Positions 1-38,048 of a stretch of DNA of 40,353 nucleotides are shown here, in pieces. The notes beneath the pieces were generated by a model. The model had not been told where the DNA came from. It searched no databases and saw only the letters and a list, made by a program, of their open reading frames with translations. The position numbers and the translations under genes were made by a program. The stretch's first letter is position 1; every line of letters begins with the position of its first letter. This stretch comes from Jaenimonas drosophilae (Eukaryota > Euglenozoa > Kinetoplastea > Trypanosomatida > Trypanosomatidae), in assembly GCA_030849065.1 (NCBI GenBank), contig JASAON010001496.1, forward strand, positions 1 through 40,353, read 5' to 3'.

Positions 1-464
1 CAGGCTGGGACACGGCTTGGTTCTTGTGCAGTCGTGGAATGGTTTCGTGAAAAAAGGTTTCCCCACCTCTAGAGAAAGTGCGCACCATATGAGGGAAAGA
101 AGATCAAGTGCTGGTTATTTCAGGTATCGTATCCAATTTCCATTTCCATTGTTCCAAACCCTCTTCAACCCCCACGCGATGCATGTGACACCCCATCACT
201 TCATCACGATTCAGTATTTTGCGGGGGGGTCACGATACTATGCGAGAGCAAAGGGGGAAAAGACGAATGCGATAACCAAGCTCGACTGCGGAGCGCGAGC
301 GCTCGCTGTCCAACGCAGTACACATTGCCCAACTACTGTTTCGTTTTCGCTCTTGCGGCAAGTCCACCCCCCCCCCCATAGGTTCGGTTAGCCACCATTC
401 CCACACCCATGACGCATCCCAATGCGGGATGCTGTTTGGGAGACAAACATCTGGCAACTGCGTC
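1..464. other. Left-edge non-coding sequence, probable downstream flank of the retroelement
   Basis: No supportable gene. It lies beyond the end of the minus-strand RNase H remnant, so it may be the 3' untranslated end of the VIPER-like element or a related SIRE-type sequence, but I cannot define a boundary. It contains a G7 run at 223-229 and a C11 run at 367-377, like the rest of the element. Short open frames on both strands here show no recognisable domain. Confidence 0.4.
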
Positions 465-1162
465 TCAGTCAAGCAAAGGGCAGCGCGTTGTCGTCAAACG
501 AGGCAAGCCCATCGTAGGTTTCCGTTGGGACGTTGATTTCCCCACGGAGCCCCCCTGCCCCAAAGCTGCGGGACACGATGTCTGCCGGTTCATGGTGCCC
601 CGGATATAGAAGAAAGCCACCCCGACGCCACGGCTCTCTTTAATGCCGTGCGCCAATTCGAAGAGCTTGTTTAGCGAGAAACCTCCACCTATTCCGCCGA
701 AACCGTTCAATTTTCGCTGAGCGTGCACAATCGGAAAGTGGTCCGTTGTGAGGGCGATGCGGGAACCGGGAGGGATACCCATCCGCAAAAACTAACTGAG
801 CAGCCCGCGGCTCAGCGTGCGCAGAATGTCGCGCGTTAAAACGAAAGGCCGGTATGTTGGCATCCAAGGAGAAATGTTTTTTGCCCAAGGCAGAATGTCA
901 TGGATCCGCCGCCGCTGCACCTTTGTCAGAAAACCGTCAGCTTGCCGTTGAATCAAAGCACCCCAGCCGCCAGCCGAGGCGTCTGCGCACACTATGAAAT
1001 CATAATCCGCCTCGGTGCGGGATACTTGGCACCGGTCAGCAATCTGCCACCAATCGTTCCGTAAGATGAGTTCGCCCAGTTCCTGAAGTTGTTGTCCAAC
1101 CAAAGGATCCAGTTGGGGAATCTCATCGTCCCGGCCGCAACCCGTGGCCACCCGGCGGCACA

Positions 1163-1172
1163 CCCCCCCCCC
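1163..1172. repeat. C10 homopolymer run at an RT/RNase H frame change
   Basis: Ten consecutive C. The connection-domain frame stops matching here and the RNase H frame begins immediately beyond it on the minus strand. Confidence 0.9.
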
Positions 1173-1359
1173 GGCAGGCTCGCAACAGGCGGAAAGCGCC
1201 CGCCGGGTTTATTTTCGTCGTGTGCAAAGCGCACATCAGCAAAGATATCACAGACGCGAAAGACCCGCAACTGAAACGCTCAAACTTTAATGCCAGTCTT
1301 AATTTTGCCAATGTTTTGGCCGGGTTGCGAGCTGGCCTTTCAGTGCCGTTCCAACGGTA

Positions 1360-1372
1360 CCCCCCCCCCCCC
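1360..1372. repeat. C13 homopolymer run at an RT frame change
   Basis: Thirteen consecutive C on the + strand. Minus-strand RT similarity leaves one frame on one side of the run and resumes in another frame on the other side. Confidence 0.9.
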
Positions 1373-2291
1373 GGGGAACACCCTGTCCTTCCCCGCGCAC
1401 CCCAGCAACCCCCCGCCACCCATACCCTCGAGTGCGGTCCTCTCCGGTGATGCGAGGAGGTTCGCGTCCTGAATGCGTCGTAAAACGGTGTGGACGGCCA
1501 ACAAGAAGTCTGCCTCTTGTCCATCTTCAGCAGCCAACAAGATGTTGTCTATCATGGTGTGGATCGTTACAGGTGTACTGATGTCCACAATCGTCCACGT
1601 GATAGTTTGTCCCACCGCCACACCCCATTTCGCCCCCGTAGGAATTGCGCACAGACGGTAGCAACCCCCGCCTCTGGTCCTGAAAACAAAGCAGTTCCCG
1701 GCCGCCCCAGGCAAGGGATTGGAGTCGCAAAAGGCTTCAAAGTCAATCTGGAGCACGCACTTTGCCCTTCCCAACGACCGTCGTCTTCTTCCCAATCTTG
1801 CCGGGCACCCCAGCCCCGGGATCAGTCCAGGGGGGTATGGCCGCATTCAGCTGGAGTTCTGCAATTATCCTTCCGCGTTGTTTCATCTCGTTTACCACGA
1901 ACACGTTTGTCCAGTATGCTCCACGAGGCAAATTTGTTCCGTTGAAGATGGTCTTGTCGCATAATTGAAATTTCCCCCATTCAACTGCCTTGCGGATGTC
2001 CTCGTCTGTCAATTGAGTGGACTTTATCGTCCTGGAGAGATGATACCCTTCGAAGATTTGAGAGGTGAAGAACTTTTGCACATTTTGAAGGAGTTCCTTT
2101 GTCGCCGCAGTTTTTGTCGGCATCGCAAGGATGGCTCCCATATCCAAAGGCGTCGTGCGTTATAGGTGGAGGGGCCACGTACTCGGGTGTGATAACCTTT
2201 CCGGGAAAGGCTTTCCCCCGAAGCCATTGTAGCTCTCGATAAACACCCCCAACCCGGACTCCCAACTCCTTTGTTTTTGGCGCGCTCGCGC

Positions 2292-2621
2292 CTAGCTCCT
2301 CGGGTGGACCCGCGCAGCGCTGCCCATTGCTCTTTCGTCCCCCAAGGTATGCGGGAGGCCAAGACCCAGGGAGCCTCTTAGCGCCGGCACCCGGGTTTGC
2401 CCCGTGAGGGCCATGAGCTCTTTTTCCGCCACCCCTTGCCGCGCCAGGTGCCGGATCGCCCCATTCCGGACCGAGGGAAAAGAAAGCCCCGCATTCTGAG
2501 TCCTCAGCGCTGCGAACCATCCCCCTGAGTCGATCGCAGAGTTGGAACAGTCGATCCCCCCCCTCCTCCGCGATAGGATTTTCGTGAGGCGCGCTTTGCC
2601 CTCGGGGGAAAGGGGCGGCAT
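2292..2621 (-). pseudogene. Tyrosine recombinase C-terminal remnant of the VIPER-like element
   Basis: The minus-strand frame contains VRNGAIRHLARQG followed by ELMALTGQTR and RGSLGLG. This matches the C-terminal catalytic half of DIRS/VIPER tyrosine recombinases, where the pattern is R-x-GA-x-x-HLA, then a GHT box, then the nucleophilic Tyr in a RYL-like context. Here the GHT His is Gln and the expected Tyr is Ser, so two catalytic residues appear to be lost. The N-terminal half of the enzyme should lie upstream on the minus strand (2650-4450), where frames are fragmented; a segment near 4180-4040 (FFAKAYGVKIADGKTI, TAIGKKQRGI) could belong to its core-binding domain, but I am unsure. Confidence 0.6.
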
Positions 2622-3336
2622 TGGTGGGCATGGTCACCCCCCCCCCCGCATTACCGCCGCCGGCCCTCGGCGGCGACGCGATCCCCACGCCCCCCCCCCC
2701 GGGGGCAGGACATATGGCCCCGCGCGGGCGGCGAAGACCCACATCATCCGCGGGCGCGGCGATGCCTCTTAGGACTTCGCGTTGAGGACCTTCCGCGCCG
2801 CTTTGATTTCCTGAGGAGGGGGGACCGGTGGTGGTGGGTAAGCGATCTCCTGTTTCTCCTGCCTCTTCGCATAATTCGAGGCCGCGGTCCACTCCTTGGA
2901 TCCACTCAGGTCGATCGCCTCCGTGCAGTTTGTGTACAAAGTCAGTCTGCCCAACGCCCCCGCTATTGACGACAGATTTTTGCCCACTGTTGCCAAACAC
3001 CAGTTTCCCAATCATGGCCCGTTGCCGGATCATCTCGAGCACAGCCGGGACTAAGTTCCAACCTGTGAACTGTGCTGGCAGCTGGCATCGCCACAAGGTC
3101 CCGCAACCAACGCATGCGGTGGTCCTGGCGCATCGTATTCGCGACATCCCGATACGCCATCACATGTGCGCGGGGCGGTCGGTCGTGGTACATACCACGT
3201 TGGCGGGCAGACGCGCGGCCTCTGCAGTTTAAAGGAGGCCCCGCCGCAGTTCGTGGCGCGGCGAAGACGTCTTCGTTTCCATAAGCAGACCGGGCCCCTT
3301 TCTTGGCCCCCGGCGTCCTCCTGGCCGCGCCCCACA

Positions 3337-3353
3337 CCCCCCCCCCCCCCCCC
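3337..3353. repeat. C17 homopolymer run, the longest in the window
   Basis: Seventeen C in a row inside the retroelement. Similar runs of 10 or more lie at 2637-2647, 2690-2700, 3817-3826, 4679-4689 (G), 4891-4900 (G) and 5182-5192 (G). Confidence 0.9.
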
Positions 3354-4634
3354 GGGCGTTGACCCTCCAGGAATCGACACCTTGCACACACCCCAGCCCC
3401 CTGGCAGACAAGCCGCACATGTTGCCTCCGCGGGGTTCTGCGTTAAAGCGTAGCGCCCATGTGTTGCGCCATTTGGCCCGATTTCGCCCCCAAACCTGGC
3501 GCCAAGAACAAACCGGTACTTTCCGATGATCCCGGGGGGCGGCAGCGTTCTCCCGGTGCGGATGCACAAGGGCCCGTTGCACAAGCCCCGCTCTCCTGGA
3601 CCATTTTCCGGTGGGATGGCCAGATCCAGGGGGAGACCCATCTTCCCCAGGCCCCGGTCAAGCCGCGTTGGATCTTTGGCCCCTTACCAAACAAAGTGCA
3701 AACTACCTTTCCGATAGCGCCGGATGATGGGGAGCGGCCAGATCCCCCGCCGGCCCTTCTTAAAGCCGCGGCGCAGAGGAAATAACAAGCATTCAGTCGC
3801 GTGCACCTGGCTGCAACCCCCCCCCCGCTTTCCACAACCATTCGACTTATCCATTCCGGGTTGTTGCGGTTTGCGGGGATGCCCGAAAATACCGCCGCTG
3901 CCGCGTGCTGGCGGGGGCGGGGCATACCCTTCCGCGTTTTTTGAGGGTGGGTATACGCCATACCCGCCCCCCCCACCCATTAGCAAGATTCCCGCAATGC
4001 GCGCGCGGGGGGGTGTCATTTCTTTTGGAACCCGGGCCGGCACCCCAAATACGCGCCAAGCCACCGCAATTCCTCTCTGTTTTTTGCCAATGGCTGTGCG
4101 GCATAGATTCCTTAACCGCGCCGCAATAGTTTTGCCGTCCGCGATCTTGACGCCATATGCTTTTGCGAAGAAATGGGCAGCCATGTGAAGGCACAGTCAT
4201 TGCTTCCTCGCTCCTTCCCCTCCGACCTACCCCGGCGTATCCCCAAGTCTGGGAAGAAGCCCGAGAGCCCTTCGCGCAGGCCGCGGTGTATATAATCCTA
4301 TGGGGCGGAGATATGTATGGTGGGCGCCGGCTTTGCACGGTTTTGATGCAGAAAACCTGCGATCCAGCGGCGCCGGCAGAACAACGGGAAAAGCGCCGTT
4401 TTGTGTTTCCGCAACATGTTTGCAATCCGCCAGGCCCTTTGGACAGCAATGGTTGGCGGTGCGTCGCTGGGTAACGCGGTGGCTACTGGGGCGAGGTATC
4501 TCCTTCAGAGCGCATCCGGGTGGATGTTGGATGTCTTTCCTCCCCGGAAGCCCCAAGCATTCTCCGGGAAAAAGTCGCCCCTCCACAGCTGCGGCTTTCG
4601 AGGGGCCGTTTGTTTTTTTGCGCGCGGCTTGGAT

Positions 4635-5075
4635 TCAATTCCGAATCCGCACAGAGCGCGCATCGGTCTTTGTATGATGGGGGGGGGGGCTGGTTGTGCC
4701 CCACCTCCCCGCGCCGCCCCGCCGGGCGGCGCTTCGGGATCCGCGTCCCGCCCCCGAGATGCCGCCCAACCCCCCAACGGGTTGCCCCCGTTCCCACCCC
4801 GCAGCACCCCCCCTTCCCCCAAACCAACCCCCAGCAGCCGCGCGGAGCTGCTGTTTTGCTCTTGAAACCCGCCCGGTAGAAATAAAGGATGGGGGGGGGG
4901 TTCGGGCGCGCATGGTCCAAGAGCAAACCAGCCGCCATTCACGCACGACTTCCCAGTTGCGAACGCACACCCCCCGTTCTCGTCCAGCGGAGAACATGAA
5001 ATGCCCGATCTTGAGCATGCGCTCTTCGATGGTCATCTCGCCCGCGAACATGCGAGGGCCTTGGTGTGTGGTCAT
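4635..5075 (-). pseudogene. Possible first ORF (gag-like) fragment of the VIPER-like element
   Basis: A minus-strand frame opens with ATG at 5075 and begins MTTHQGPRMFAGEMTIEER, with normal-looking amino-acid composition for about 60 residues. It then degenerates into Gly/Ala/Arg-rich sequence after the G10 run at 4891-4900. Its position upstream of the recombinase and RT on the same strand is where a gag-like first ORF is expected. No zinc knuckle or other diagnostic motif was seen, so the assignment rests on position only. Confidence 0.3.
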
Positions 5076-5440
5076 TGGTTTGTTCGCCTGGCATTTTGAG
5101 TGTCCCTCATCGTTGCTGTATCGGTGGCGCTCAGTTCTGTTCCGGCTCGGTTTTGATGGGCGGTGGTGGTGTGTTTTTCTTGGGGGGGGGGGCGGCCGAT
5201 GTTTGGGAATCGACTGGTGTCGTATTGGGCGCTGGTTCTGTGCGCGATCGGCCGTTGTTGTGAAATGTTGCTTGGCAAGAGTGAAAGTGGAGTGGCTTGT
5301 ATTTGTCGAAGTTTTGGTTTCTCTATCTGAGCTCTTGTTGTAGTGGTGTTTGTGTGGATCGTATCAGTTTCTGCGCGACGTGGTGTTTGGTGGTAGCCTC
5401 TGTGTTGAGCGTGTGACATAGACAATATCTTATTAACCCA
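5076..5440 (+). promoter_or_regulatory. G/T-rich region upstream of the first + strand gene, candidate transcription start region
   Basis: From about 5090 to 5430 the + strand is strongly G/T-rich and poor in C and A, with many TGGTG and GTTGT words and a G11 run at 5182-5192. It separates a minus-strand element from a + strand gene series, so it sits at a divergent boundary. G/T-rich sequence is known to act as RNA polymerase II promoter DNA in T. brucei. The functional reading is inference; it could also be the 5' untranslated end of the retroelement. Confidence 0.35.
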
Positions 5441-5484: not shown

Positions 5485-6726
5485 ATGGCTCAGGTTACTC
5501 CTGCTCGACGCCTGATGGGTCTTCCACAAATATCGATTTGGGAAGAAATGACCCCACTTGCAACCCAACATAAGGCTATTAACCTTGGGCAAGGGTTTCC
5601 AAGCTTTTGCCCTCCGACATTTCTTCTGGATGAGCTGCAGAAAGTAATTACCGATGTGAACCCCTTGAATCATCAGTATTGCCCAGTGCGAGGACATGGA
5701 GAGCTCGTTAATCAACTGAAATGCATGTACTCGACTCAGCTGAAAAGAGATATTCTCCCAACTGAAGTGGTGGTGACAAATGGGGTCACACAAGGATTGA
5801 ATGCGGTGATGCAAGCATTCGTTAATGAAGGGGACGAGATTATTCTAATTGAGCCATACTTTGATGCGTATTTTCAGGATGTTCAGGTGTCTGGAGGTGT
5901 TGCAAAATTCGTACAGCTGCGTCCGTCGAAGGTATCAGCAGATGAGTGGGTTCTAGATGAGGCCCAGCTATTGTCAGCTGTTAGTGAAAGGACGCGACTC
6001 CTCATTCTAAATACCCCTCAGAACGTACCAGGAAAAGTGTGGAGTCGTGATGAGATGGAGATGATCGCCCGAATCGCGAGGGACAATGACATAATTGTTA
6101 TTGCAGATGAAGTGTATATGAACCTGACGTACTCAAAGAAGCACATATCGTTGGCTTCACTTCCTGGAATGTGGGAGCGAACGATAACACTATGCAGCGC
6201 AGGGAAAACATTTTCATGCACTGGATGGAAAATCGGATGGGCTATTTCATGTGAAACGCTTACTGCGCCTATTGCGAAGATCTTGTCATACCAAACATTC
6301 TGTTGCTCGACGCCGACTCAAATTGCTCTTGCCAGAGCTTTGGAGGCTGCTCAGCGCAATGGCTACTACGATTCACTGAGAAGTGAGTATCTTCGTCGTC
6401 AGACTCTTCTGAGCGATCTCCTTACAAAGTGTGGACTCCCCCCTGTAAAAGCAAATGGAGGATTTTTTCTCATGGCGGACATAAGCAATGTGGATCCCTC
6501 ACACTACTTTAATCCAGATGACAGGGATTACGCAAAGGATTGGCAATTTTGCCGCTGGTTGACGAAAACCATTGGTGTGTGCGCTATCCCAACAACTGCG
6601 TTCTGCAATCCATCGAGCCGCTCTACATACGAAGGCTTCGTCCGATTTGCTTGTTGTAAGCCGGAGGATGACCTTCTCGAAGCTGCACGCAGACTTGAGC
6701 GCCTGAAGGACTATTTGATTAATTAG
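5485..6726 (+). CDS. Kynurenine aminotransferase-like / cysteine-S-conjugate beta-lyase family aminotransferase
   Basis: A 413-residue fold-type I PLP aminotransferase of the KAT/glutamine transaminase K group (class I/II). Members transfer the amino group from kynurenine, glutamine or aromatic amino acids to 2-oxo acids; the substrate here cannot be read from sequence. Landmarks: INLGQGFPSF near the N-terminus, which shapes the active site in KATs; NTPQNVPGK at about 176-184; the PLP-pyridine Asp208 in IADEVY; the Schiff-base Lys241 in SAGKTFSCTGWK; and the carboxylate-binding Arg387 in FVRFACCK. Length and motif spacing agree with human KAT I (Lys247, Arg388). One small departure is Val at 181, where NPxG is usual. 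The ATG at 5485 is the first after a good splice acceptor. No signal or targeting peptide is obvious, so a cytosolic enzyme is likely. Confidence 0.9.
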   Translation: MAQVTPARRLMGLPQISIWEEMTPLATQHKAINLGQGFPSFCPPTFLLDELQKVITDVNPLNHQYCPVRGHGELVNQLKCMYSTQLKRDILPTEVVVTNGVTQGLNAVMQAFVNEGDEIILIEPYFDAYFQDVQVSGGVAKFVQLRPSKVSADEWVLDEAQLLSAVSERTRLLILNTPQNVPGKVWSRDEMEMIARIARDNDIIVIADEVYMNLTYSKKHISLASLPGMWERTITLCSAGKTFSCTGWKIGWAISCETLTAPIAKILSYQTFCCSTPTQIALARALEAAQRNGYYDSLRSEYLRRQTLLSDLLTKCGLPPVKANGGFFLMADISNVDPSHYFNPDDRDYAKDWQFCRWLTKTIGVCAIPTTAFCNPSSRSTYEGFVRFACCKPEDDLLEAARRLERLKDYLIN

Positions 6727-6841
6727 TGGTATTGATTGCATGAATTTTGCACTATTTTCTTGGAACTCTGGTTGCCTTGGCGAAATGGCTCGTTGTGATG
6801 TCGCGCGGTAACCGCGCATTACATGCTGGGGCGTTAATTGC

Positions 6842-6935: not shown

Positions 6936-7763
6936 ATGCCGACCGCTGCGCTAGTATGTAGGGATCGCACAACAGAGTATTGGAGCCTTAGATCTGTCGC
7001 ACATAATTTGCGTGATCCATTGGAAAATTATGGGATTCCTCCGGTGCCCCCTCCATGGGCAAGATCAGTGCAGTATTTTGGAGAGTTGGAAGAGAAGGTA
7101 CAGCACAAGCTATTAATCGTTTCGGAAGAGCAAAATTCACTTTTGAGACCAAGATTTTCAAGCGACTCAGACGCCGATGAAGCGCGACAGCATGAATCTA
7201 TTGAACGGAAATGTGGCGAAATTCAACGTCTTATCCGCGAGCTTGAGCGTCTTGTCACTGTCACAATTAATCCAAAACAGGGTTCCTGTAGTGATGAAGT
7301 TCATATCGCTAACAACGCGAGGAAAATTTTGTCCTCGCGTTTGAGATTTCTAGTCTCGATGTTCAAGAGCAACCAAGAGTCCTTTGCTAAGCGATTGGAA
7401 GACCGCAATCGCAAGCGTAGTCAGTACCAGCAGGTTGGATCGAGTGAGTCTCACCAGCGACTGGAGAGAGAGATCAAAGTTTCGGAATTTGCAGAACAAG
7501 GGTTTTCTGGCAGTGATATCGAGGGTCTTCTTGTCGAAGAGCATCAGAACTCAACACTCAATGATGAGATTACTGGCATCTTGGAGAGCGTGAAGGAGCT
7601 GCATCTGATTTTTGAAGAGATCAACTCAAATGTTATCGAGCAAGGTTCCATCCTCGATCGTGTGGATCACAACCTTTCCAGGACAGAAGTTCAAGCAGAA
7701 AGGACACATGAACTACTAATAAAGGCAGATGAACAGCAGAGCTCTATGTGCACCATCATGTGA
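6936..7763 (+). CDS. Syntaxin-16/Tlg2-like Qa-SNARE with C-terminal CaaX box
   Basis: A 275-residue Qa-SNARE. In other eukaryotes Stx16/Tlg2 drives fusion of endosome-derived vesicles with the trans-Golgi. Visible parts: a short lead with GIPPVPPPWARSVQYF, close to the Stx16 pattern before its Habc domain; a helical Habc-like region (about 45-160); and a SNARE motif from about 211 to 264 with zero-layer Gln236 in NVIEQGSILDRVD, also the Stx16 pattern. The normal C-terminal transmembrane helix is absent. The protein ends Q-S-S-M-C-T-I-M, a CaaX box with Cys272 and Met last, which predicts farnesylation. An in-frame ATG at 6798 would add 46 residues including a hydrophobic stretch, but it lies upstream of the best splice acceptors, so 6936 is preferred. 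Confidence 0.85.
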   Translation: MPTAALVCRDRTTEYWSLRSVAHNLRDPLENYGIPPVPPPWARSVQYFGELEEKVQHKLLIVSEEQNSLLRPRFSSDSDADEARQHESIERKCGEIQRLIRELERLVTVTINPKQGSCSDEVHIANNARKILSSRLRFLVSMFKSNQESFAKRLEDRNRKRSQYQQVGSSESHQRLEREIKVSEFAEQGFSGSDIEGLLVEEHQNSTLNDEITGILESVKELHLIFEEINSNVIEQGSILDRVDHNLSRTEVQAERTHELLIKADEQQSSMCTIM

Positions 7764-7883: not shown

Positions 7884-8429
7884 ATGAGACCATTGACGGA
7901 GGAAGAGTCAAAAAAACTCTTCGACAAGCTTGCCCAGTATATTGGCCCAAACACAACTCATTTACTACAGCGAAAGGGGGAAGAAGAGTATGTCTTCCGG
8001 TTGCACAAGAACCGCATTTGGTACATGCCCATGAGACTTGCGAAACTGGCCAGTTGTGTAGCAAAGAACAATCTTATGGGCATTGGCGTTTTGTTTGCGA
8101 AGGTGACACACAATGGGAATGTCCGCATTCAGGTTACTGCACTGGAGTACATTGCCCAATACTCCTTATTCAAGATTTGGGTGAAACCAAACCAAGAGCA
8201 GAAATTTCTCTACGGCGGAAATGTGACTCGCGCTGGACTTGGGAGAGTTACAGAGTCCACTCCAAAGTATCAGAAGGTAGCTGTATTCTCGATGGGTGAT
8301 GTGCCGCTCGGTTTTGGAGTTGCCGCCCAAAGCACCATGGAATGCCGAAAGTGTGAAATGAACGCGCAAGTGCTATTTCACGAGGCAGATGTGGGCGAGT
8401 TCTTGCGTGATGAAGCAAGAATGACGTAA
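7884..8429 (+). CDS. NIP7: 60S ribosome subunit biogenesis protein NIP7
   Basis: A 181-residue protein that matches eukaryotic NIP7 along its whole length, including the start MRPLTEEE and the C-terminal block DVPLGFGVAAQST. NIP7 is a nucleolar factor needed for 27S pre-rRNA processing and 60S assembly. It has an N-terminal alpha/beta domain (about 1-90) and a C-terminal RNA-binding PUA domain (about 95-175, with FLYGGNVTRAGLGRV). Human NIP7 is 180 residues, so the gene is complete. The start is secured by the conserved N-terminus and by a splice acceptor 12 nt upstream. Nothing is unusual in the sequence. Confidence 0.95.
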   Translation: MRPLTEEESKKLFDKLAQYIGPNTTHLLQRKGEEEYVFRLHKNRIWYMPMRLAKLASCVAKNNLMGIGVLFAKVTHNGNVRIQVTALEYIAQYSLFKIWVKPNQEQKFLYGGNVTRAGLGRVTESTPKYQKVAVFSMGDVPLGFGVAAQSTMECRKCEMNAQVLFHEADVGEFLRDEARMT

Positions 8430-8897: not shown

Positions 8898-9028
8898 TAC
8901 CCTAATGGACTCGTCCATAAATTTGTTGCCTATCTGTCAGCCCTCCAAATTGACTCTCTCTTTCTTTGCTGAGCTATCTGAAACGAAAAAAATAGTCGCT
9001 GATGACGCCAATGAACCTGCCGCAAATT

Positions 9029-9061
9029 GCCTCTTCTCTCATGGCTTTTATTTGAATCCAG
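9029..9061 (+). promoter_or_regulatory. Probable trans-splice acceptor of the RAD51 paralogue
   Basis: A pyrimidine-rich stretch from about 9029 to 9051 is followed by CAG at 9059-9061. The first ATG after it is 9112, in frame with the RecA-like domain. An alternative upstream acceptor near 8972 would place a 17-codon out-of-frame ORF (9002-9055) ahead of the gene. Confidence 0.45.
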
Positions 9062-9111
9062 GGTGTCCGCGAGGGGGACTGTCACGAAGTACGTTTTCAC
9101 AAACTGTAGCT

Positions 9112-10152
9112 ATGAATTTGTGCAAGGCTTCTGCCCTCGGTGAAGCTCATTCAGGTGGGCTTGCTTCACCGCGAGCCATCTCCACGGGTATTCCCGCGCT
9201 TGACTACCTTCTTGGGCAAACTGGTGGTGAGAGATGTGGCCTTGAGGAAGGTTCGATAACTGAAGTATTTGGACCCTCGCTATCAGGAAAGAGTTTTATA
9301 CTTCAACGAGTGGTTGCCACGATTGTCGAGAGAATGTTGAGGAGCCACGCACATTTTCTTGCGGCGCCTGCATGTAGTTCGTCTGCATTAGATTGGAAAG
9401 TATATGTGTGCTTATTTGGAGAAATTATGCCTTCAAATGCAGCTCACGCCAATTCATATTACTGCTCTGGATGGAAGTCTCTATTGAGCAGAATTGGCCG
9501 CGACTGCTCAAGACCAGAACAAAAAGACTATTTGGATACCCATGTGCACGTTATTGACTTTGATGAGCCAAATGGACTTCTTGATTTTTTGGCAACGATC
9601 TCTGAGGCTTGCCGTGAGGAAAGAGGAGAGAGGTGCAGCAATGACCATCAATGGGCTCACACATTACTTGTCGTGGATTCACTTAGCTATTTGTGGTCCC
9701 ACCCTGCGCTTGGGGGTTTAGGGTCCCGTCGCTGGTTCTCTATGGAGTTGTGCCGAGTGCTGCGGAAATGTGTGATGATGGGCTCGTCTTCTCGAGGCAG
9801 TTTGGCCTGTTCAAGGATGACTACTGTTGTGGTGGCAAATGGAGTACGCAAATATGGCGTACAGGATGTTCCTAACTGCTTGATTTATCCAGCTGGAGAT
9901 ACGGCGTGGCTGCGTGCAGCCGATTGTCGGCTCTATGTGGAGCCAGCTTGCCCTCTGCAGAACTCAGTTCCCCGAGAAGTTATTAGTGAATCGGGAATGT
10001 CCAGAGGAACTGAGGGTCGTCGCTTTTCGAAAGTATCGCTTATGAAAAGCCTTGTGATGCGACGCGGCCCCCTGCAACAAACTTTCATTCCCCACTCAGA
10101 GATATTCGCGCCTCGTGACGCTGATACGACGTACAGCTCCAAGGGTCCGTGA
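9112..10152 (+). CDS. RAD51-paralogue (RecA-fold recombinase family) protein
   Basis: From ATG 9112 this is a 346-residue RecA-fold ATPase of the RAD51-paralogue type. RAD51 paralogues help load or stabilise RAD51 filaments in homologous recombination, which trypanosomes use for repair and antigen-gene rearrangement. Seen: the family entry motif ISTGIPALDYLLG; Walker A GPSLSGKS at about 54-61 (Lys60); and a hydrophobic Walker B LLVVDSLS with Asp189. The segment between them (HVIDFDEPNGLLDFL) fits the family. I cannot assign it to RAD51B/C/D, XRCC2 or XRCC3. The reading frame is open back to ATG 8905 (415 residues), but those 69 extra residues lack similarity and the candidate splice acceptors lie inside them, so I prefer 9112. 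Confidence 0.75.
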   Translation: MNLCKASALGEAHSGGLASPRAISTGIPALDYLLGQTGGERCGLEEGSITEVFGPSLSGKSFILQRVVATIVERMLRSHAHFLAAPACSSSALDWKVYVCLFGEIMPSNAAHANSYYCSGWKSLLSRIGRDCSRPEQKDYLDTHVHVIDFDEPNGLLDFLATISEACREERGERCSNDHQWAHTLLVVDSLSYLWSHPALGGLGSRRWFSMELCRVLRKCVMMGSSSRGSLACSRMTTVVVANGVRKYGVQDVPNCLIYPAGDTAWLRAADCRLYVEPACPLQNSVPREVISESGMSRGTEGRRFSKVSLMKSLVMRRGPLQQTFIPHSEIFAPRDADTTYSSKGP

Positions 10153-11617: not shown

Positions 11618-12826
11618 ATGCCACCTCCAGCCAAATCACTGGAGGAGTTGCAAGTTGAGATCACCCAGCTTGACGACCGTTACGTCCTTGATCGCTTGAT
11701 CGGTGCTGGAAGCTACGGCGTGGTGATTCGCGCAACGGATCGTACAGATCAGTCTCTAGTGGCCATCAAGAGAGTAAACAAGGAGATTTTTGAAGAAGCC
11801 ATTCTTGCCAAACGCATTCTTCGCGAAATCAAACTTCTATCCCATTTTCACGATGAAAACATTATCGGTCTCCGAAACATCCTGACCCCACACGACCCAG
11901 AAAACTTTGAGCACTTCTTTATCGTAATGGACATCATGGAAACCGATCTCAAGCAGGTTCTGCGTAGTGGCCAGGTACTGACTGAGGCCCACACTCAGTT
12001 CTTCGTATATCAGGCGCTACGTGCACTGATGGTAATTCACAGCGCCGGCGTGATACATCGTGATATCACCCCGGCCAACATCCTTATCAACACCAATTGC
12101 GATTTGAAGATCTGCGACTTTGGCTTGGCCAAAGAGGAGAGTGACCAGGGTGAGTACATGACAGATTATGTGACGATGAGGTGGTACCGTGCACCGGAAT
12201 TGGTAATGGAGGACAAGAACTACTCCGCGAAAATAGATGTGTGGGGTATCGGCTGTATTCTTGGCGAGTTGTTGGGCTCACGACCACTCTTTCAGGGAAA
12301 GGACCGCGTACAGCAACTGGATAGAATTGTGGAGGTAATCGGTACCCCCTCGGACGAGGATATCAAGTCAGTCGGCTCAGCTGCAGCACAGAAGTACCTC
12401 AAGAAGAAGCAACCTCGTCCACGCGCCAATTGGCGAGGCAAGTACCCGTCTGCCTCAGAAAGCGCGCTGGACCTCCTGGACCGAATGCTCGTCTTCAATC
12501 CGGAGAAACGTATTACGGTCGAAGATGCAATGAAGCACCCCTTCTTCTCAGCAATCTACGACGAGGTGGACACAGGCATTTCCTACGATACTTTCCACTT
12601 TGATGAGCATGCTCAGAAATCTGTCAAGGATGTCAAGCGCGCTATTTACGCCGAGAGCGTTCGATTCCACATGTCACACCCAGGCCTCCAGCGGCAATCA
12701 ACTGCCCGTACAGCAGGAAGTACCGCGCCAAGCGTTGCCACCGACGGCGAAGGTCGCTCGGCCCAACAGACCATTCAGAAAGATGTGCCGGAGGCAAATG
12801 TGGAGAAGATCTTTGAGCGCGCTTGA
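11618..12826 (+). CDS. MAP kinase (CMGC group) with TDY activation motif
   Basis: A 402-residue MAP kinase. Seen: Gly loop IGAGSYGVV (28-36), catalytic Lys51 in VAIKRV, catalytic loop HRDITPAN (147-154), DFG 167-169, dual phosphorylation motif T182-D-Y184 in MTDYVTMRWYRAPEL, and a MAPK-type C-lobe with LLDRMLVFNPEKRITVEDA. TDY activation loops are common among trypanosomatid MAP kinases; I believe the closest relatives are the TbMAPK2/LmxMPK4 group but cannot confirm it. Odd point: the residue two after the catalytic Asp is Thr151, where Ser/Thr kinases nearly always have Lys. The ~50-residue tail (LQRQSTARTAGSTAPS) is Ser/Thr-rich. It should phosphorylate Ser/Thr-Pro sites in cell-cycle or differentiation signalling. 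Confidence 0.93.
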   Translation: MPPPAKSLEELQVEITQLDDRYVLDRLIGAGSYGVVIRATDRTDQSLVAIKRVNKEIFEEAILAKRILREIKLLSHFHDENIIGLRNILTPHDPENFEHFFIVMDIMETDLKQVLRSGQVLTEAHTQFFVYQALRALMVIHSAGVIHRDITPANILINTNCDLKICDFGLAKEESDQGEYMTDYVTMRWYRAPELVMEDKNYSAKIDVWGIGCILGELLGSRPLFQGKDRVQQLDRIVEVIGTPSDEDIKSVGSAAAQKYLKKKQPRPRANWRGKYPSASESALDLLDRMLVFNPEKRITVEDAMKHPFFSAIYDEVDTGISYDTFHFDEHAQKSVKDVKRAIYAESVRFHMSHPGLQRQSTARTAGSTAPSVATDGEGRSAQQTIQKDVPEANVEKIFERA

Positions 12827-26458: not shown

Positions 26459-29400
26459 ATGCAGGAAGAGGCTTGTTTAGGCGGTGGTGATGTTATGAGG
26501 TCAAGCAGCCCGTTGGAGTTTTGGGCAGAGCGGAGCGGAAGGGAGCATTGTCCTGCTGGCCATGAGCTTCCAATCGATGTGCTCGTGAGTGTTTGGCAGT
26601 ACTGTCCTCAGGAGACGATTTTTGCGTGCCGACTGGTGTGTAGGCTGTGGAATGACTTATTTCTGCAAGAATTATTGCGGGCCGATAGTGCGCAACATTT
26701 TGGAGCGCTGGATGGCGTGCAGAGTGGATCGGTGAGGAAGGCTGTGGAGAGATCCTCGGCGAGGTTGGGATCGAGGTACTGTGACGTGATTCCTGAGGAT
26801 GAGGATGAGGGGTTCGCCTGGATGGGCAAACGTCTTGGTAGGTGTGAACAATCATCTGGATGGCAACCTCAGGTGGCGAACTTTTCGTGGACGGAGTGGA
26901 TGCAGCTTTGTAGACGGCACAATGCGGTGTGCACAAAGGAGACGGGTATGCTGGCGACGACATCGTCGCGGTCTGGGAGCTCTGTGGCAAAGCTCGAAGG
27001 GGTGGTGGCAAGAATGCGAAAGATGGCGGCGATGCAATTGACGGTGAACTCGGCTGAGGAGTGGCTTGGTCATTTAGCTGATTTCCGGCGAGCGCAGCAC
27101 AACATCCGCTGCTGTCGTTCACGTGTATCGCGGTTTCCTTCTTCCCCATCGAGATATTGCCAGGTACTGTTGCTGCCGGATGGGGGGCTCATGAGGCTCG
27201 ATTTGGGAGTGGAGGTCTTCTACCGACGTCCTCCGTATCAGTGGGGGTGCCCCAGTGCGGAGCCAGTGAAGGGTATTCCTTCCCGGAGGAAGGTAGCACA
27301 CTGCACGAGCTGGGCGCCAGAGTTGCGATACCCCGCTCCCGAGGGTGAGAGTATCTTCTACAACCCGTATGTTGGCATGCCATTTCTCATGGGTGGCAGG
27401 GGATTAGAGCCTCTCCCTCTGGAGTGTTCCACCTCGAAGCGCGCGATGGATCTGCGTCTTGGTGTGAAGGACTCTCCATGTCTTGACAGCACGGCGTGGC
27501 ATGATTTACAAGCGTTCCTCCGGCATTCTCGCAGCTGCACCATGCCAATGGTCACTACGGATCTCTTCGCTTCCTTCGACTTTGCTCCCCAGGTGATGCC
27601 AACCACCAGTATGCACAACTTCACCTTTGCTCAAGTGGACGTTACACCACTACCCAACATTGGCTGGAGCTCGAGCAGAGTATCTCGGCTCATGTCGCGT
27701 CTGTATCCCACAGAGGCCTCTACGGCGGATGTGCCCATCCACATTGTCCGGCGCAACACGGACATCACTGAGAGTGTCATGCGACGTCATCCCAGCGCAA
27801 TTCTCAATGCGGTGGACTTGTTCACTATGGTGCTCATGGGGTTGACCGCTTCCGTGAAGTTCGAACCCGTCTTCGCGGGTGATGAGAGTCACCCTGAGCA
27901 AGAAGCTTCCGGTGAAGAGGCGAGCGTGGATGCTTCTGCTTCCTCCAGAGTTGTTGCTGCGCTATCCAACGTACCACACGACAGCACCGTGCTTGAGGAT
28001 GGCGGCGACGAGTCACCCAGCGCGCGGGGCGTGATCCTTGGGAACTTATTGGAGGACGCAAACCTTATTGCTTCGTGTGGAACCGATGGATGCGTCTTGT
28101 TGTGTGCGATATCCCGTGTGGGCTACCGCAGGCTTGGCCAGCTGGAGGGGGTCGGCGCAACTGAGGTGGCCATCCTTGGTGCGCCAGTTTTCCAGCGTGT
28201 GGAAGGGACGACGCCCATCGCGAAGGTGGAGGTGCCACGTCATATCGCTACGCGTCTAGGCCCCTGTCATGCACCTAACTACCTCGAAGATGAACAACTG
28301 TCGGGGGTGGAGAAGGCAGAGGTATTGCTACTGGCCCTCAGCATGCAGTCAATGGCCTACATCTGCACCCACACTGTTCGCCGTGAGCTGTGCTATATGG
28401 CCAGCGTGTCATCCGACACCACCATGATTCTTCATGGCTATTTGTACTACGCCGAGTCCATCACAATCACACTTCGGCAGGAAATTGGACTCTGCTCGGT
28501 TGTGGCGATCCCTCGTCCGTTGACGTGTGTTCGGGGTGGTCTCAATGGCTGTGCCACCTGGAGCAGCAGCCCCTCATGGCGACCCCAGGAAGACGGCCAT
28601 CCGTTCTTCTGTTGGCCTTTCCTGGCAGTTGGACGGAGACGAACAGGGGTGAAGGTGTTCTACCGTCGGTCCGCTGACCAACAACATGGGCCGAGGAGAG
28701 ATGATGAGCATGAATCCCTCTTTGACGGTGTTCGAATCCTACCACCAACCTCCGTACATGGCAGTGAAGGGGAGGATGAGCCCATTGAATGTGTGGATGG
28801 ACGACCATCGCCACGGCAACTTCGAGTTCTCTTAAAGGACGTGACCGCCATCACCATCTCTCCATCTCACGCCATGCTTCTCGTGGCCAATGACTCGCAT
28901 CAAGTGTTTGTTGTTGCCCCTTCACTTGCCGCCGCTAAGGAGGAAGAGGAGGAGGTGCTGCCCAAGGATTCGTTACCAGCACCAACGTTTCGTCCTGGGG
29001 TAGGTGCGCGCCAAGGGAAGCGTATGGGGCTTTTCTCCTCCCAGGATGAACACGGAGTCACATGGATCCACCGTCATTTTTCTCCAGGACGCGAGAACGA
29101 GAGCTCCAGCAGCAGCAGCAGCTCTTCATATTCCGTCTACGTTGGAGAGGGGGTATTTGCGGGAGCCGCACCAACAGATGCTCAGACACCGTCGATGCGT
29201 CTCTATCATCCCGAGGTGACCTCACCCCCTCACCACGACTCTGATGCTGGTGATGAGCTAGCTGACGGTGCTACCCCACGTGCGGTGGTTGGCCCCATTG
29301 AGGTGTTTGGACGTGGTTTCTTGCTTGATCCATGCCTGCATGCCCTTCAATCGACGTACCCCTCACTTATTCCCCCGCCGACAGACTCTCAGCAGCAACC

Positions 29401-30985
29401 CCGTCCATTGGTTTTTGTGGCCTTTGTGGTTCAGGAGAAGCGCGGAAAGCTGGCGGGCATCCGAGACATGGCGGTGGATGACTGGAAGCTCACCGTCATC
29501 ACCGCCTACTTGGATGTTGTGATCTACGATGTGGCTGCTCTCATGAAGGAGGGTGAGGTGGGGGGGAAGGCCCCAACTCCAGGCCTGCAGGAGTTGTCCC
29601 CATTGATGCACTTCCCCCGTGCCACCCCGCTCATGTCTTTGGGGGTTCTTTCTGCACCCCTCTTCAGTCCAGCACTCCAGACGAGCTCGTGGCTGTTGCG
29701 ACTTGCTTCGGTGAGCGGCCTGGATTCATGGAAGAATCGCAGCCGGCTGAGAAATTGCTTCTCGTGGCAGGGTGGCATCTTTGCCCTGCACCACGTGCCG
29801 GCCTTTATGTGTACCGTTGTGGTTGATTTTGAAGCGCTCTGTCCTTCATCGAGTGAGAGTGACCAGGATGATGAGAGCGGTGCAGGTGGCATGGAGGCTA
29901 CCCCACCCAATGAGGAAGCCGCATTCGCGTCTCCATTTCCGGAAACGGGCTTACCCCTTGGTAGCCCCTTTGGTGCTCGTCCTAGAACTTCCACCTCGCT
30001 GGGCTCACGCGGCAGCCCACGAACATCTCCACGAAACTCACCACGGATGAGGAGTCTGCCTGGGGTGCGTGTGGACCACTCACTGCTGAACGTTCCTCAC
30101 GTCCCCTTTGGCACCCACCTTGGGTTGCGTGTGGTCATGCAGATGCTCTCTCCCTTCGCTGTGGCGTCGGGTGTTGGGGCACTCATTTACACGGCCATGC
30201 AGTTAGATAGGCAGCAAGGCCCTCTCTCCGCAGGACTGGCCCTGTGGATCTTGCCGTCGTTGGTGCCAATCGAAGGGTCCTTGGTCACTCGCCAGCAGCA
30301 CGTCTATCAAGACCGCTGGATCGGATGGTGGCTGTGCGTGCTTCGTGGGTTTCTGCTGATGGTGGTAGTCCCCATCCTTTTTGTGGTGAAGTATGACCTT
30401 CAACTTTACCGGGACACCACGCTACCGCTACGGTGGATGCATGTGGGTCTCTTCTGCTCTGCTGGCATAGTCATGGAGGCACTGTGTCAGTGGATGGACA
30501 TCAAAGTTGTGGAGCGTCGCCTGGTGTCCTATCGCTGGTCCTTCACTGTGTGGGTGATACTGCCCACTCTGGCCCTCAGCGCCGCATCGCCACCTCTGAT
30601 TGGTCAATACTTTGATGCCCCACGACACCACCATGGAACAACACCGCAGTTTCCTCTCGCGGTGGCATGCGCTCCCATTATGGCATCCATCGTGATCAGT
30701 TGCCTTTCCTTGGCCATCTCCAGCACCATTTCGAGCAACCTTCCCAGTCTCTGGTACGTTGTTCCTGCCGTCATCCATCTGATCATCATGGGCTTTCTGC
30801 TGCTTCCTTGTATTCTGTTCATCACAAACTTCTCATCGTACTGGAAATGGAGAAACGGGGAGTCACGAGAAGAGAGCCAACCGCAACTTATGGTGGCAAT
30901 GGTATTCGTCTGTATTATTGCTAGTATTTGGGGCATAGGAGTGCTGTGGGAACCCACAAGGCGGCTTGTGAGGATCTTGTGGTGA
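26459..30985 (+). CDS. Large F-box protein with a C-terminal multi-span membrane domain
   Basis: A 1508-residue protein. Residues about 36-73 form an F-box (LPIDVLVSVWQYCPQETIFA then CRLVCRLWNDLF), the motif by which SCF ubiquitin-ligase receptors bind Skp1. The ~1100-residue middle has no clear domain. One stretch (LIASCGTDGCVLLCAIS) looks like a WD40/propeller blade, and low-complexity acidic and Ser-rich linkers occur, including a poly-Ser run (AGC repeats at about 29104-29120) and RGSPRTSPRNSPRM near 1182-1195. The last ~290 residues carry about eight hydrophobic helices, for example WWLCVLRGFLLMVVVPILFV and WYVVPAVIHLIIMGFLLLPC. The repeated LD-x-n-LALWILPSL pattern faintly recalls TMEM185-type proteins. 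It could be a membrane-anchored ubiquitin-ligase adaptor; that is inference. Confidence 0.8.
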   Translation: MQEEACLGGGDVMRSSSPLEFWAERSGREHCPAGHELPIDVLVSVWQYCPQETIFACRLVCRLWNDLFLQELLRADSAQHFGALDGVQSGSVRKAVERSSARLGSRYCDVIPEDEDEGFAWMGKRLGRCEQSSGWQPQVANFSWTEWMQLCRRHNAVCTKETGMLATTSSRSGSSVAKLEGVVARMRKMAAMQLTVNSAEEWLGHLADFRRAQHNIRCCRSRVSRFPSSPSRYCQVLLLPDGGLMRLDLGVEVFYRRPPYQWGCPSAEPVKGIPSRRKVAHCTSWAPELRYPAPEGESIFYNPYVGMPFLMGGRGLEPLPLECSTSKRAMDLRLGVKDSPCLDSTAWHDLQAFLRHSRSCTMPMVTTDLFASFDFAPQVMPTTSMHNFTFAQVDVTPLPNIGWSSSRVSRLMSRLYPTEASTADVPIHIVRRNTDITESVMRRHPSAILNAVDLFTMVLMGLTASVKFEPVFAGDESHPEQEASGEEASVDASASSRVVAALSNVPHDSTVLEDGGDESPSARGVILGNLLEDANLIASCGTDGCVLLCAISRVGYRRLGQLEGVGATEVAILGAPVFQRVEGTTPIAKVEVPRHIATRLGPCHAPNYLEDEQLSGVEKAEVLLLALSMQSMAYICTHTVRRELCYMASVSSDTTMILHGYLYYAESITITLRQEIGLCSVVAIPRPLTCVRGGLNGCATWSSSPSWRPQEDGHPFFCWPFLAVGRRRTGVKVFYRRSADQQHGPRRDDEHESLFDGVRILPPTSVHGSEGEDEPIECVDGRPSPRQLRVLLKDVTAITISPSHAMLLVANDSHQVFVVAPSLAAAKEEEEEVLPKDSLPAPTFRPGVGARQGKRMGLFSSQDEHGVTWIHRHFSPGRENESSSSSSSSSYSVYVGEGVFAGAAPTDAQTPSMRLYHPEVTSPPHHDSDAGDELADGATPRAVVGPIEVFGRGFLLDPCLHALQSTYPSLIPPPTDSQQQPRPLVFVAFVVQEKRGKLAGIRDMAVDDWKLTVITAYLDVVIYDVAALMKEGEVGGKAPTPGLQELSPLMHFPRATPLMSLGVLSAPLFSPALQTSSWLLRLASVSGLDSWKNRSRLRNCFSWQGGIFALHHVPAFMCTVVVDFEALCPSSSESDQDDESGAGGMEATPPNEEAAFASPFPETGLPLGSPFGARPRTSTSLGSRGSPRTSPRNSPRMRSLPGVRVDHSLLNVPHVPFGTHLGLRVVMQMLSPFAVASGVGALIYTAMQLDRQQGPLSAGLALWILPSLVPIEGSLVTRQQHVYQDRWIGWWLCVLRGFLLMVVVPILFVVKYDLQLYRDTTLPLRWMHVGLFCSAGIVMEALCQWMDIKVVERRLVSYRWSFTVWVILPTLALSAASPPLIGQYFDAPRHHHGTTPQFPLAVACAPIMASIVISCLSLAISSTISSNLPSLWYVVPAVIHLIIMGFLLLPCILFITNFSSYWKWRNGESREESQPQLMVAMVFVCIIASIWGIGVLWEPTRRLVRILW

Positions 30986-31444: not shown

Positions 31445-32215
31445 ATGGCTCAGTTGTTTGTTGGGCAGCTGCCGTTCAACAAGTTTTATCCCACGGATCT
31501 GCTGGAGCTGTTTCAGCCCTTTGGTCAGGTGATTGCCCAGGAGATTCACATCCGAAAGGGTAATGGCTTCGTGACCTTCGGCTCCACGGCGGAGGCTGAT
31601 GCGGCCATCATGGCGCTCCACGGCAAGTATGTGGTGCCAGGCCGCAATCAGCCCCTTCAAGTCATTTACTCCAAGGGAACACGCATTATTTCTGAGTTTG
31701 GCGAACGTCATCGCGGAGAGTGCGTGGCGATTCGGGAAGAAACTCGCCGGCGAATGGCCCCGACGGAACAATCCGCCGTGATGTACGCTGGTATTATGCA
31801 GAGCCCAATGCTACTGAGCAGCGATATGGCCTATGTGGCAGGGGCGGCAAATCTCCCAGCCGCTCTCCCCCCACCCTTGCCAAACTTCTCTACCTCCAGT
31901 GGAGCCGTCTCCGCCTCACAGGCCCACATGGCACACCTGATTTCTCCGCTTCCTTCCTCAGGCTCTGGATCGGGACCGGCGATGTACTACGTTTTCGCGC
32001 CACCATCGCAGACCTCTCTCACCCCGTTGCCCAGTGGAGCCTTTTACAACGGTAGCTTCGGTAGTGCAAGCAACAGCACAAGCACCTTAAGTGCCCCGGT
32101 GGCTTCTGGTGGTGTTCCCCAAGTGAGTGCTTCCCCCAACAACTTTGGTCAGTATGTTTTTCAGCCGGTTCCTTGTGTTTTGTGTCCCAGCCCTGAGACC
32201 TCAGCACTGGCGTGA
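31445..32215 (+). CDS. RRM RNA-binding protein, array copy 1
   Basis: A 256-residue protein with one N-terminal RRM (about 1-75): RNP2 is LFVGQL at residues 4-9 and RNP1 is KGNGFVTF. The RRM ends in GKYVVPGRNQPLQVIYSKGT, then a basic linker (ISEFGERHRGECVAIREETR) and a Pro/Ser/Ala/Asn-rich tail. Small single-RRM proteins with Q/N/P-rich tails are typical trypanosomatid regulators of mRNA stability and translation. The start is the first ATG after a strong acceptor at 31427; the open frame extends upstream only without an ATG. Unlike copies 2 and 3 the C-terminus lacks the YMYHPLGF signature and ends in a Cys/Pro segment (VLCPSPETSALA). Target RNAs are unknown. Confidence 0.88.
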   Translation: MAQLFVGQLPFNKFYPTDLLELFQPFGQVIAQEIHIRKGNGFVTFGSTAEADAAIMALHGKYVVPGRNQPLQVIYSKGTRIISEFGERHRGECVAIREETRRRMAPTEQSAVMYAGIMQSPMLLSSDMAYVAGAANLPAALPPPLPNFSTSSGAVSASQAHMAHLISPLPSSGSGSGPAMYYVFAPPSQTSLTPLPSGAFYNGSFGSASNSTSTLSAPVASGGVPQVSASPNNFGQYVFQPVPCVLCPSPETSALA

Positions 32216-33982: not shown

Positions 33983-34762
33983 ATGGCTCAGTTGTTTGTG
34001 GGACAACTTCCCTTCAACAAGTTCTATCCTGCGGACCTCTTGGACCTCTTCGAGCCCTTTGGCAAGGTTGTGGCACAGGAAATTCATATTCGTAAGGGCA
34101 ATGGATTTGTGACCTTTCCAACAACGGCGGAGGCCGATGCTGCCATCTTGGCTCTTCACGGCAAGTACGTGGTTCCAGGCCGTCATCAGCCCCTGCAGGT
34201 AATCTACTCCAAGGGCACCAAGATGATTTCACAGTTCGGTCGCAGCCACCGCAATGAGTGCCTTGCACTGCGCGAGGGAAGCCGCCGTGGAAGCCGCTCC
34301 GATGCAGCATCCCAGAAACGTCTCAGTGCCGCAAACACTACAGTGACATCCATGGATGAGGCCGGTGCGCTGGCTGCAGCAAGCGCTCCATTCTCCTTCT
34401 TGCAGTCTGCCCTTGACCCCCTGTCTTTTTCATCCACAGCGATTGGCCCCATGACATCCACTACCAACATCGTCTCTCCCATGATGAACCCGCCCCACGG
34501 CTCGATGCCTCAGGCAATGTACCCCCCTGTTACTTCCCTCAATGGCTCTCAGCCCGCAATGTACGTGATGCTTGCTCCGCCGTCGCAGGGTGGGGTGCCT
34601 AGCTCATCTATGTTTGACGGCAGTTTCGGAAGCAACAGCAACAGCAACGCAAGCGGCCCTCCGCCCGTGAATATGCCTAATGCGATGCCCGCTTCGGTGC
34701 CATCGAACCCAGAAGCCGCACAGTACATGTACCATCCTCTGGGGTTTCTGTTTCAACAGTGA
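33983..34762 (+). CDS. RRM RNA-binding protein, array copy 2
   Basis: A 259-residue paralogue of copy 1. The RRM (1-75) has LFVGQL and KGNGFVTF intact, followed by a basic linker (FGRSHRNECLALREGSRRGS) and a long Ala/Ser/Pro/Asn tail. The tail contains the shared block SQPAMYVMLAPPSQ, a GSFGSNSNSNAS stretch, and the C-terminal signature AAQYMYHPLGFLFQQ shared with copy 3. The start is the first ATG after the acceptor at 33880. At the DNA level its second half of the RRM is unusually close to copy 4. The role is expected to be post-transcriptional regulation; no targets can be inferred. Confidence 0.88.
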   Translation: MAQLFVGQLPFNKFYPADLLDLFEPFGKVVAQEIHIRKGNGFVTFPTTAEADAAILALHGKYVVPGRHQPLQVIYSKGTKMISQFGRSHRNECLALREGSRRGSRSDAASQKRLSAANTTVTSMDEAGALAAASAPFSFLQSALDPLSFSSTAIGPMTSTTNIVSPMMNPPHGSMPQAMYPPVTSLNGSQPAMYVMLAPPSQGGVPSSSMFDGSFGSNSNSNASGPPPVNMPNAMPASVPSNPEAAQYMYHPLGFLFQQ

Positions 34763-37232: not shown

Positions 37233-38048
37233 ATGGCACAACTCTTTGTGGGGCAGCTTCCCTTCAATAAGTTCTACCCCAATGACCTGCTTGATTTATT
37301 TCAGCCATACGGAAAGGTCATTGCGCAGGAGATTCATATTCGAAAGGGAAATGGCTTTGTGATGTTCGGCACTACAGCTGAGGCTGATGCAGCCATTCAG
37401 GCGCTCCACGGTAAGTACGTGGTACCAGGCAGACATCAGCCGCTTCAGGTGACATACTCCAAAAGCACAAAGCTGATCTCTGAGTTTGGCTGCAATCATC
37501 GCAACGAGTGCCTGGCATTGTGGGTCATTAATCAGAACAGCCGCTCTGAAGCGACCACACGCCAGCCTCCCCCACGCAGCATGAACCTCATGAATACCCC
37601 CTTGATTGGCTCTGAGGCAGATGGGCCTGTTCTTTCTCTCTCCCCTTACCCACTCATGCAATCACCGCTGAGTCCGCAGGGGATGGCGCCAGTGCCACCT
37701 CAGACTGTTCAACCGTTTCCAGGTCCGGGGAACCTCCGTGCCTTCCCCATCATGGCTTCTCCCCAAGGTTCCATTTCTCCCCAGGCTGTGTACCCGCCGG
37801 TACCCAACCACAATCTCTCTCAGCCGGCAATGCTTGTGGTGTTGACCCCATCCACACAGAGTGGTATGCCCAACCCTTCACTGTTCAACGGCAGTTTAAT
37901 AAGTGCCGGAAACAGCAGCAGCAGCAACAGCATGAGTGTTCCCCCGCCTGTGAACGTGCCCACGTCAGTGCCAAATTCGATCATTCCACCTTCCCCAGAA
38001 GCTGCACAGTACATGTACCATCCTCTGGGGTTCATTTTTCAACAGTGA
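37233..38048 (+). CDS. RRM RNA-binding protein, array copy 3
   Basis: A 271-residue paralogue, the longest complete copy. The RRM has LFVGQL and, at RNP1, KGNGFVMF, where the Thr seen in copies 1, 2 and 4 is Met. The basic linker differs (FGCNHRNECLALWVINQNS). The Pro/Ser/Met-rich tail includes PQAVYPPVP, SQPAMLVVLTPSTQ, a NSSSSNSMS run encoded by AGC/AAC codons, and the C-terminal signature AAQYMYHPLGFIFQQ shared with copy 2. The start is fixed by homology to MAQLFVG of the other copies. Expected to bind mRNA; targets unknown. Confidence 0.88.
   Translation: MAQLFVGQLPFNKFYPNDLLDLFQPYGKVIAQEIHIRKGNGFVMFGTTAEADAAIQALHGKYVVPGRHQPLQVTYSKSTKLISEFGCNHRNECLALWVINQNSRSEATTRQPPPRSMNLMNTPLIGSEADGPVLSLSPYPLMQSPLSPQGMAPVPPQTVQPFPGPGNLRAFPIMASPQGSISPQAVYPPVPNHNLSQPAMLVVLTPSTQSGMPNPSLFNGSLISAGNSSSSNSMSVPPPVNVPTSVPNSIIPPSPEAAQYMYHPLGFIFQQ

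Follow-up and report, generated by a model that had tools for sequence, protein, structure and literature searches.

The window, i.e., the whole stretch of 40,353 nucleotides of Jaenimonas drosophilae DNA analysed in this work, contains at 6936-7763 (+) an intact open reading frame of 828 bp (275 codons and a TGA stop), whose 3' end, at positions 7670-7763, is where a sequence-only reading had placed a syntaxin-16-like SNARE. An upstream in-frame ATG is present at 6798, but it is with position 6936 as the start that the ORF has the very length of the amplicon published for the Leishmania major gene discussed below. The protein ends in ...KADEQQSSMCTIM immediately before the stop, and since a C-terminal transmembrane helix is missing, it was assigned to Syx16A and not to canonical Stx16. 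The features of the gene and its neighbours are collected in Table 1. In L. major, LmjF.33.1330 is listed as a glutamine aminotransferase (PMC6027508) and LmjF33.1380 as MAP kinase 11 (PMC2374696); with an aminotransferase gene before and a MAP kinase gene after the SNARE gene, the window thus matches chromosome 33 of that species around LmjF33.1340, in a comparison that took in these two genes.

Table 1. Features of the Syx16A gene and of its neighbours in the window.
Feature	Position	Strand	Evidence
Kynurenine/glutamine-type aminotransferase, syntenic neighbour (compare LmjF.33.1330 GLNAT)	5485..6726	+	Sequence families; L. major listing
Syx16A (LmjF33.1340 orthologue), Qa-SNARE, 275 aa and stop	6936..7763	+	Intact ORF; PDB match Tlg2; paralogue Syx16B; 828 bp equal to L. 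major amplicon
N-peptide CRDRTTEYW, resembling the Tlg2/Stx16 N-terminal peptide	6957..6983	+	phmmer alignment with Tlg2; RDRT also in Syx16B
Habc-type helical bundle, residues 40-187, limits approximate	7053..7496	+	Predicted helices; Foldseek rows
Qa SNARE motif, layers -7 to +8, residues 212-264, Q236 at layer 0	7569..7727	+	Layer register; ungapped against Syx16B; Pfam SNARE 17 bits, below cut-off
CaaX box Cys272-Thr-Ile-Met, predicted farnesylation signal	7749..7760	+	ORF; L. major tail CILM; L. major prenylation prediction at 272
TGA stop; three frames up to the next gene without a convincing transmembrane helix	7761..7763	+	ORF; downstream-frame hydropathy
NIP7 homologue, next gene, with its leader within the 120 bp that separate it from the Syx16A stop	7884..8429	+	Pfam pre-PUA_NIP7 and UPF0113
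MAP kinase, syntenic neighbour (compare LmjF33.1380 MAPK11)	11618..12826	+	Sequence families; L. major listing

Elsewhere in the window, an ORF at 8905-10152 is weakly similar to RecA/Rad51, under the Pfam cut-offs, and possibly encodes a Rad51 paralogue, and another at 26459-30985 encodes 1508 residues with, by eye, an F-box-like start and hydrophobic segments near the end. Four tandem genes beginning with MAQLFVGQLPFNKFYP (31445-32215, 33983-34762, 37233-38048 and 39686 to the end) display an intergenic spacing of more than 1 kb, and the one gene tested belongs to the RRM family. No convincing gene was recognized by eye in positions 1-5400, where the listed ORFs overlap on both strands and show odd compositions; this part is possibly non-coding, for instance a strand-switch region. 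Four matches to paraflagellar-rod families were found in the genome, as expected of a kinetoplastid, and the named relatives of Syx16B given below indicate the same affinity; a search of the assembly for a spliced-leader pattern gave no match.

Judged by its sequence, the product is an Stx16/Tlg2-type Qa-SNARE without a helix. Its best sequence match in the PDB was Tlg2 (E 2.7e-7) and its best match in the same genome was a second Stx16-type protein, Syx16B (E 3.2e-17), with E values of 0.26 and 1.7 for the other two matches; together with the glutamine at layer 0, these results agree with the initial assignment to the Stx16-like Qa-SNAREs. The SNARE layers are complete, from I212 (-7) through Q236 to A264 (+8), which places the end of the motif, as had been noted, about ten residues before the stop; the Pfam SNARE model scored 17 bits (E 0.006), under its cut-off of 26.8. 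At the N-terminus, phmmer aligned CRDRTTEYW with WRDRTNLYI of Tlg2, an alignment that is insignificant taken alone, and the RDRT peptide is common to Syx16A and Syx16B. N-terminal peptides of the Tlg2/Stx16 type bind Vps45. Five genes of the Sec1 family were found in the genome, and Vps45 was the best match for both of the two tested; Syx16A, with its RDRT motif, may bind a Vps45. A fold model from a two-sequence alignment (mean pLDDT 75, pTM 0.46, i.e., a weak model) predicted helices at residues 40-70, 78-110 and 119-187, and the top Foldseek rows for it included syntaxin-1 complexes and Habc domains, with a best E of 2.5e-3 and no matches at E ≤ 0.001.

The twin, Syx16B (locus L009, 1501-2406), has 301 residues, with the RDRT peptide and a C-terminal helix whose best 19-residue Kyte-Doolittle mean is 3.25. 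Both proteins share the Qa subfamily with canonical Stx16, Tlg2 and L. major LmjF35.2720, as well as an ungapped SNARE motif; they differ in that Syx16B is well conserved and bears the helix, whereas Syx16A is only 24-27% identical to it and ends in a CaaX box. Searches of the genome with the SNARE and synaptobrevin families found 12 loci (7 and then 5 more), 9 of which display a tail window of at least 1.8, with scores of 2.84-3.57 in eight and 1.8 in the ninth. The three loci without such a tail are Syx16A, a Ykt6-like gene (L022) and a large R-SNARE-like frame only partly within its locus (L023). Stx16 as such has thus kept its helix, since Syx16B bears one in the same genome; the helix-less protein is a duplicate, which a sequence-only reading of the window could not reveal.

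The tail of Syx16A contains no hydrophobic anchor, as had been proposed, with a maximum of 0.54 for 19-residue means over the last 60 residues. The last four residues are Cys-Thr-Ile-Met, exactly as first read, and Cys272 stands eight residues after layer +8, the remaining cysteines being located at positions 8, 93 and 118. From the residue composition of 14 ORFs, picked by us as the probable genes of the window, the chance of a protein ending in C-x-[ILV]-[MQ] is about 0.03%, and in C-x-[ILV]-[MQSACT] about 0.13%; a CaaX end was present in 1 of the 14. A chance origin is unlikely on sequence grounds, because the L. major protein carries a CaaX box at the same residue.

This arrangement is already known from publications of 2006 and 2017. 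Besteiro et al. (2006) described L. major LmjF33.1340 as an Stx16-like protein without a transmembrane domain and with prenylation predicted at residue 272; its transcript was detected in promastigotes only, and a GFP fusion expressed from a transgene gave puncta near the Golgi, apart from Rab1 and without co-localisation with endocytosed FM4-64, which according to the authors argues against early endosomes (PMC1626469). The same report includes a cytosolic L. major Qa-SNARE with neither helix nor lipid site (PMC1626469). For LmjF33.1340, the amplicon listed in its Table 2 measures 828 bp, and the complement of the reverse primer translates to C-I-L-M-stop; if amplicon size is read as coding length, the protein has 275 residues, so that the cysteine of CILM falls at 272, the predicted prenylation site (PMC1626469). 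By the same conversion, the 909 bp of LmjF35.2720 give 302 residues, like most of the Syx16B relatives retrieved below, with a primer ending in K-A-I-T (PMC1626469). LmjF33.1340 and the J. drosophilae protein are thus both helix-less, Stx16-like Qa-SNAREs with a CaaX box at 272-275, a gene of 828 bp and the same flanking genes where compared; they differ in the tail (CILM versus CTIM) and in the first residues (MELKV, from the primer, versus MPTAA). The proposal of a farnesylation-type CaaX box on an Stx16-type Qa-SNARE is supported by these two tails.

Venkatesh et al. (2017) found both Syx16A and Syx16B across kinetoplastids, the helix being absent from all Syx16A proteins and kept in all Syx16B proteins but that of T. 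borreli, and reported that Vps45 is also duplicated (PMC5399786). Syx16A was called "perhaps a regulatory protein", and the passage on T. brucei VAMP7C pull-downs lists Syx16B and does not name Syx16A (PMC5399786). The missing helix (2017) and the Leishmania lipid signal (2006) stood in separate papers, and the main text of the later one contains none of the words prenyl, farnesyl, lipid, CAAX and palmitoyl; what we add is a matching CaaX box with Met in a second genus. In the literature searched, which covered few subscription journals and no supplements, we came across neither farnesyl labelling of Syx16A nor, apart from its localisation in L. major, any experiment on its function. For T. 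brucei, the orthologue was sought by way of the neighbour Tb927.10.11970; Tb10.61.1980 is named a syntaxin in the literature, and the sources consulted gave no link between it and Syx16A.

Conservation of the CaaX box was assessed in two species, L. major being known from its terminal primers, because database searches seeded with Syx16A reached no other Syx16A: the protein alone gave 1048 candidates, none at E ≤ 0.001, and residues 186-275 gave 10, none at E ≤ 10. A search with the two-paralogue alignment retrieved 34 proteins, all relatives of Syx16B (50-79% identical to it), which include syntaxin 16 of Strigomonas culicis (76%) and of Angomonas deanei; none was a Syx16A or had a CaaX end, and 33 of the 34 showed, by eye, a hydrophobic tail. 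The remaining one, an A. deanei protein of 277 residues named syntaxin 16 (P0024), has an unrelated tail where the others have the helix, which may reflect a wrongly predicted frame and not a Syx16A.

The enzymes for a lipid modification were sought in the genome. Two prenyltransferase beta-type genes were found, one with farnesyltransferase beta as best match (L013; E about 5e-45, residues 156-346) and one with Rab geranylgeranyltransferase beta (L012); the search gave no third gene of the type-I geranylgeranyl kind. One alpha-type gene has four repeats in one frame, three of them above the cut-off, and is of the farnesyl- or Rab geranylgeranyl-type. Matches to ICMT- and Rce1-type genes say little, since the two families also gave matches in 5 and 11, respectively, of the 14 prokaryote controls, and the Ste24-type N-terminal family had no match in the genome search. 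The T. brucei farnesyltransferase is reported to take CaaX boxes with X = Met or Gln readily, and a T. brucei kinesin ending in CVIM is farnesylated in cells (PMC3206815). Given that preference for Met and the presence of a farnesyltransferase beta gene, the CTIM end of Syx16A is a likely farnesyl acceptor.

Ykt6 is another SNARE that combines a CaaX box with the absence of a helix, and L. major Ykt6 (LmjF35.2120) has a prenylation site predicted at 202 (PMC1626469). It is, however, an R-SNARE with a longin domain and two adjacent cysteines, whereas Syx16A is a Qa-SNARE with one cysteine near its end and, according to the weak fold model, a predicted helical bundle at its N-terminus. Ykt6 of other species carries a farnesyl and a palmitate on its adjacent cysteines. 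The Ykt6-like protein of this genome (L022, C350) ends in GCCSFA, with X = Ala, reportedly not one of the residues that the T. brucei enzyme accepts readily (PMC3206815). Leishmania also has a SynPM without a transmembrane domain (LmjF28.1480) which, like Syx16A, is a helix-less Qa-SNARE copy beside a helix-bearing twin, but it lacks a lipid site, is cytosolic and is possibly a pseudogene.

The sequence and location of the gene are shown, as are its twin, the genes for the enzymes and the tail of the L. major protein, whereas farnesylation, cycling and function are inferred. Probably, Syx16A is one of two Stx16/Tlg2 copies and uses a farnesyl on Cys272 as an anchor on Golgi-related membranes, with exchange with the cytosol. 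The two copies would have been separate already early in kinetoplastid history, Syx16B retaining the helix and Syx16A ending in a CaaX box just past the SNARE motif. Farnesyltransferase would most likely place the lipid on Cys272, after which the last three residues would be clipped and the new end methylated. The protein would then be held on Golgi-related membranes by the single lipid and its SNARE partners, and probably exchanges with the cytosol, since one farnesyl, without a cysteine next to it that could receive palmitate, is a weak anchor. Syx16A may serve as a Qa-SNARE that can be recruited, or may modulate the complexes of Syx16B, possibly with one of the duplicated Vps45 proteins as chaperone. 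The puncta near the Golgi reported for the L. major fusion fit a membrane-bound pool. Points that count against this reading are the lack of farnesyl labelling in the literature searched, the lack of lipid terms and the regulatory role suggested in the 2017 main text, the VAMP7C pull-down passage that names Syx16B and not Syx16A, a CaaX conservation known for two species, the use of a transgene for the L. major puncta, which overlapped neither Rab1 nor FM4-64, and the little that the ICMT, Rce1, Ste24 and alpha-type searches say.

A different reading takes Syx16A as a soluble regulatory or inhibitory SNARE, i.e., an i-SNARE or tomosyn-like decoy filling the Qa slot, for which the CaaX box is minor or unused. 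In its favour, one lipid by itself holds a SNARE weakly when fusion has to be driven, and Cys272 is the only cysteine near the end. The regulatory role suggested by Venkatesh et al. (PMC5399786) points in the same direction. Nonetheless, both species examined have Met as X in a CaaX box at residue 272, which speaks against it, as do the puncta of the L. major fusion when set beside the cytosolic SNARE that has neither helix nor lipid site (PMC1626469), and we consider it rather unlikely. A lipid and an inhibitory role can, however, coexist.

The lack of a helix could also be an artefact, with a frameshift, an unannotated intron or an assembly error hiding a transmembrane segment, as the DNA downstream of the stop is pyrimidine-rich and encodes mildly hydrophobic runs. 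Their best 19-residue means are 1.31, 1.74 and 1.66 for the three frames, and the highest of these lies in the ORF's own frame beyond two stops. These values are nonetheless unexceptional against 13 other 5' flanks in the window, 2 of which equal or exceed 1.74 (with 1.75 upstream of 26459 and 2.03 upstream of Syx16A itself), and eight of the nine SNARE helices measured in the genome score far higher, as given above; moreover, both the length of the ORF and the position of its stop equal those of the L. major gene. As far as tested, no convincing helix exists in the downstream frames, a helix hidden by a frameshift or short intron is largely refuted, and we regard an artefact as very improbable; the mild hydrophobicity would stem from the pyrimidine-rich NIP7 leader. 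That the gene is a decaying duplicate of Syx16B with an accidental CaaX box, as the low identity and the weak Pfam score might suggest, is scarcely credible for an open frame of 275 codons with intact SNARE layers, a retained RDRT, position and length as in L. major, and a published conservation across kinetoplastids (PMC5399786).

With a farnesyl-anchored Syx16A as the preferred reading, a broader proposal may be put forward tentatively, namely that throughout kinetoplastids the second Stx16 permanently exchanged its helix for a farnesyl and became an on-off Qa-SNARE with a dedicated Vps45. If so, a Golgi-related fusion step would depend directly on farnesyltransferase, and the published view of Syx16A as perhaps only a regulator would be corrected. 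With tails that match between two genera, the lipid reading can be put to the test, and a Qa-SNARE on a single lipid bears on the question of how strongly SNAREs have to be anchored. More speculatively, such a SNARE might be one of the reasons why trypanosomes are sensitive to farnesyltransferase inhibitors.
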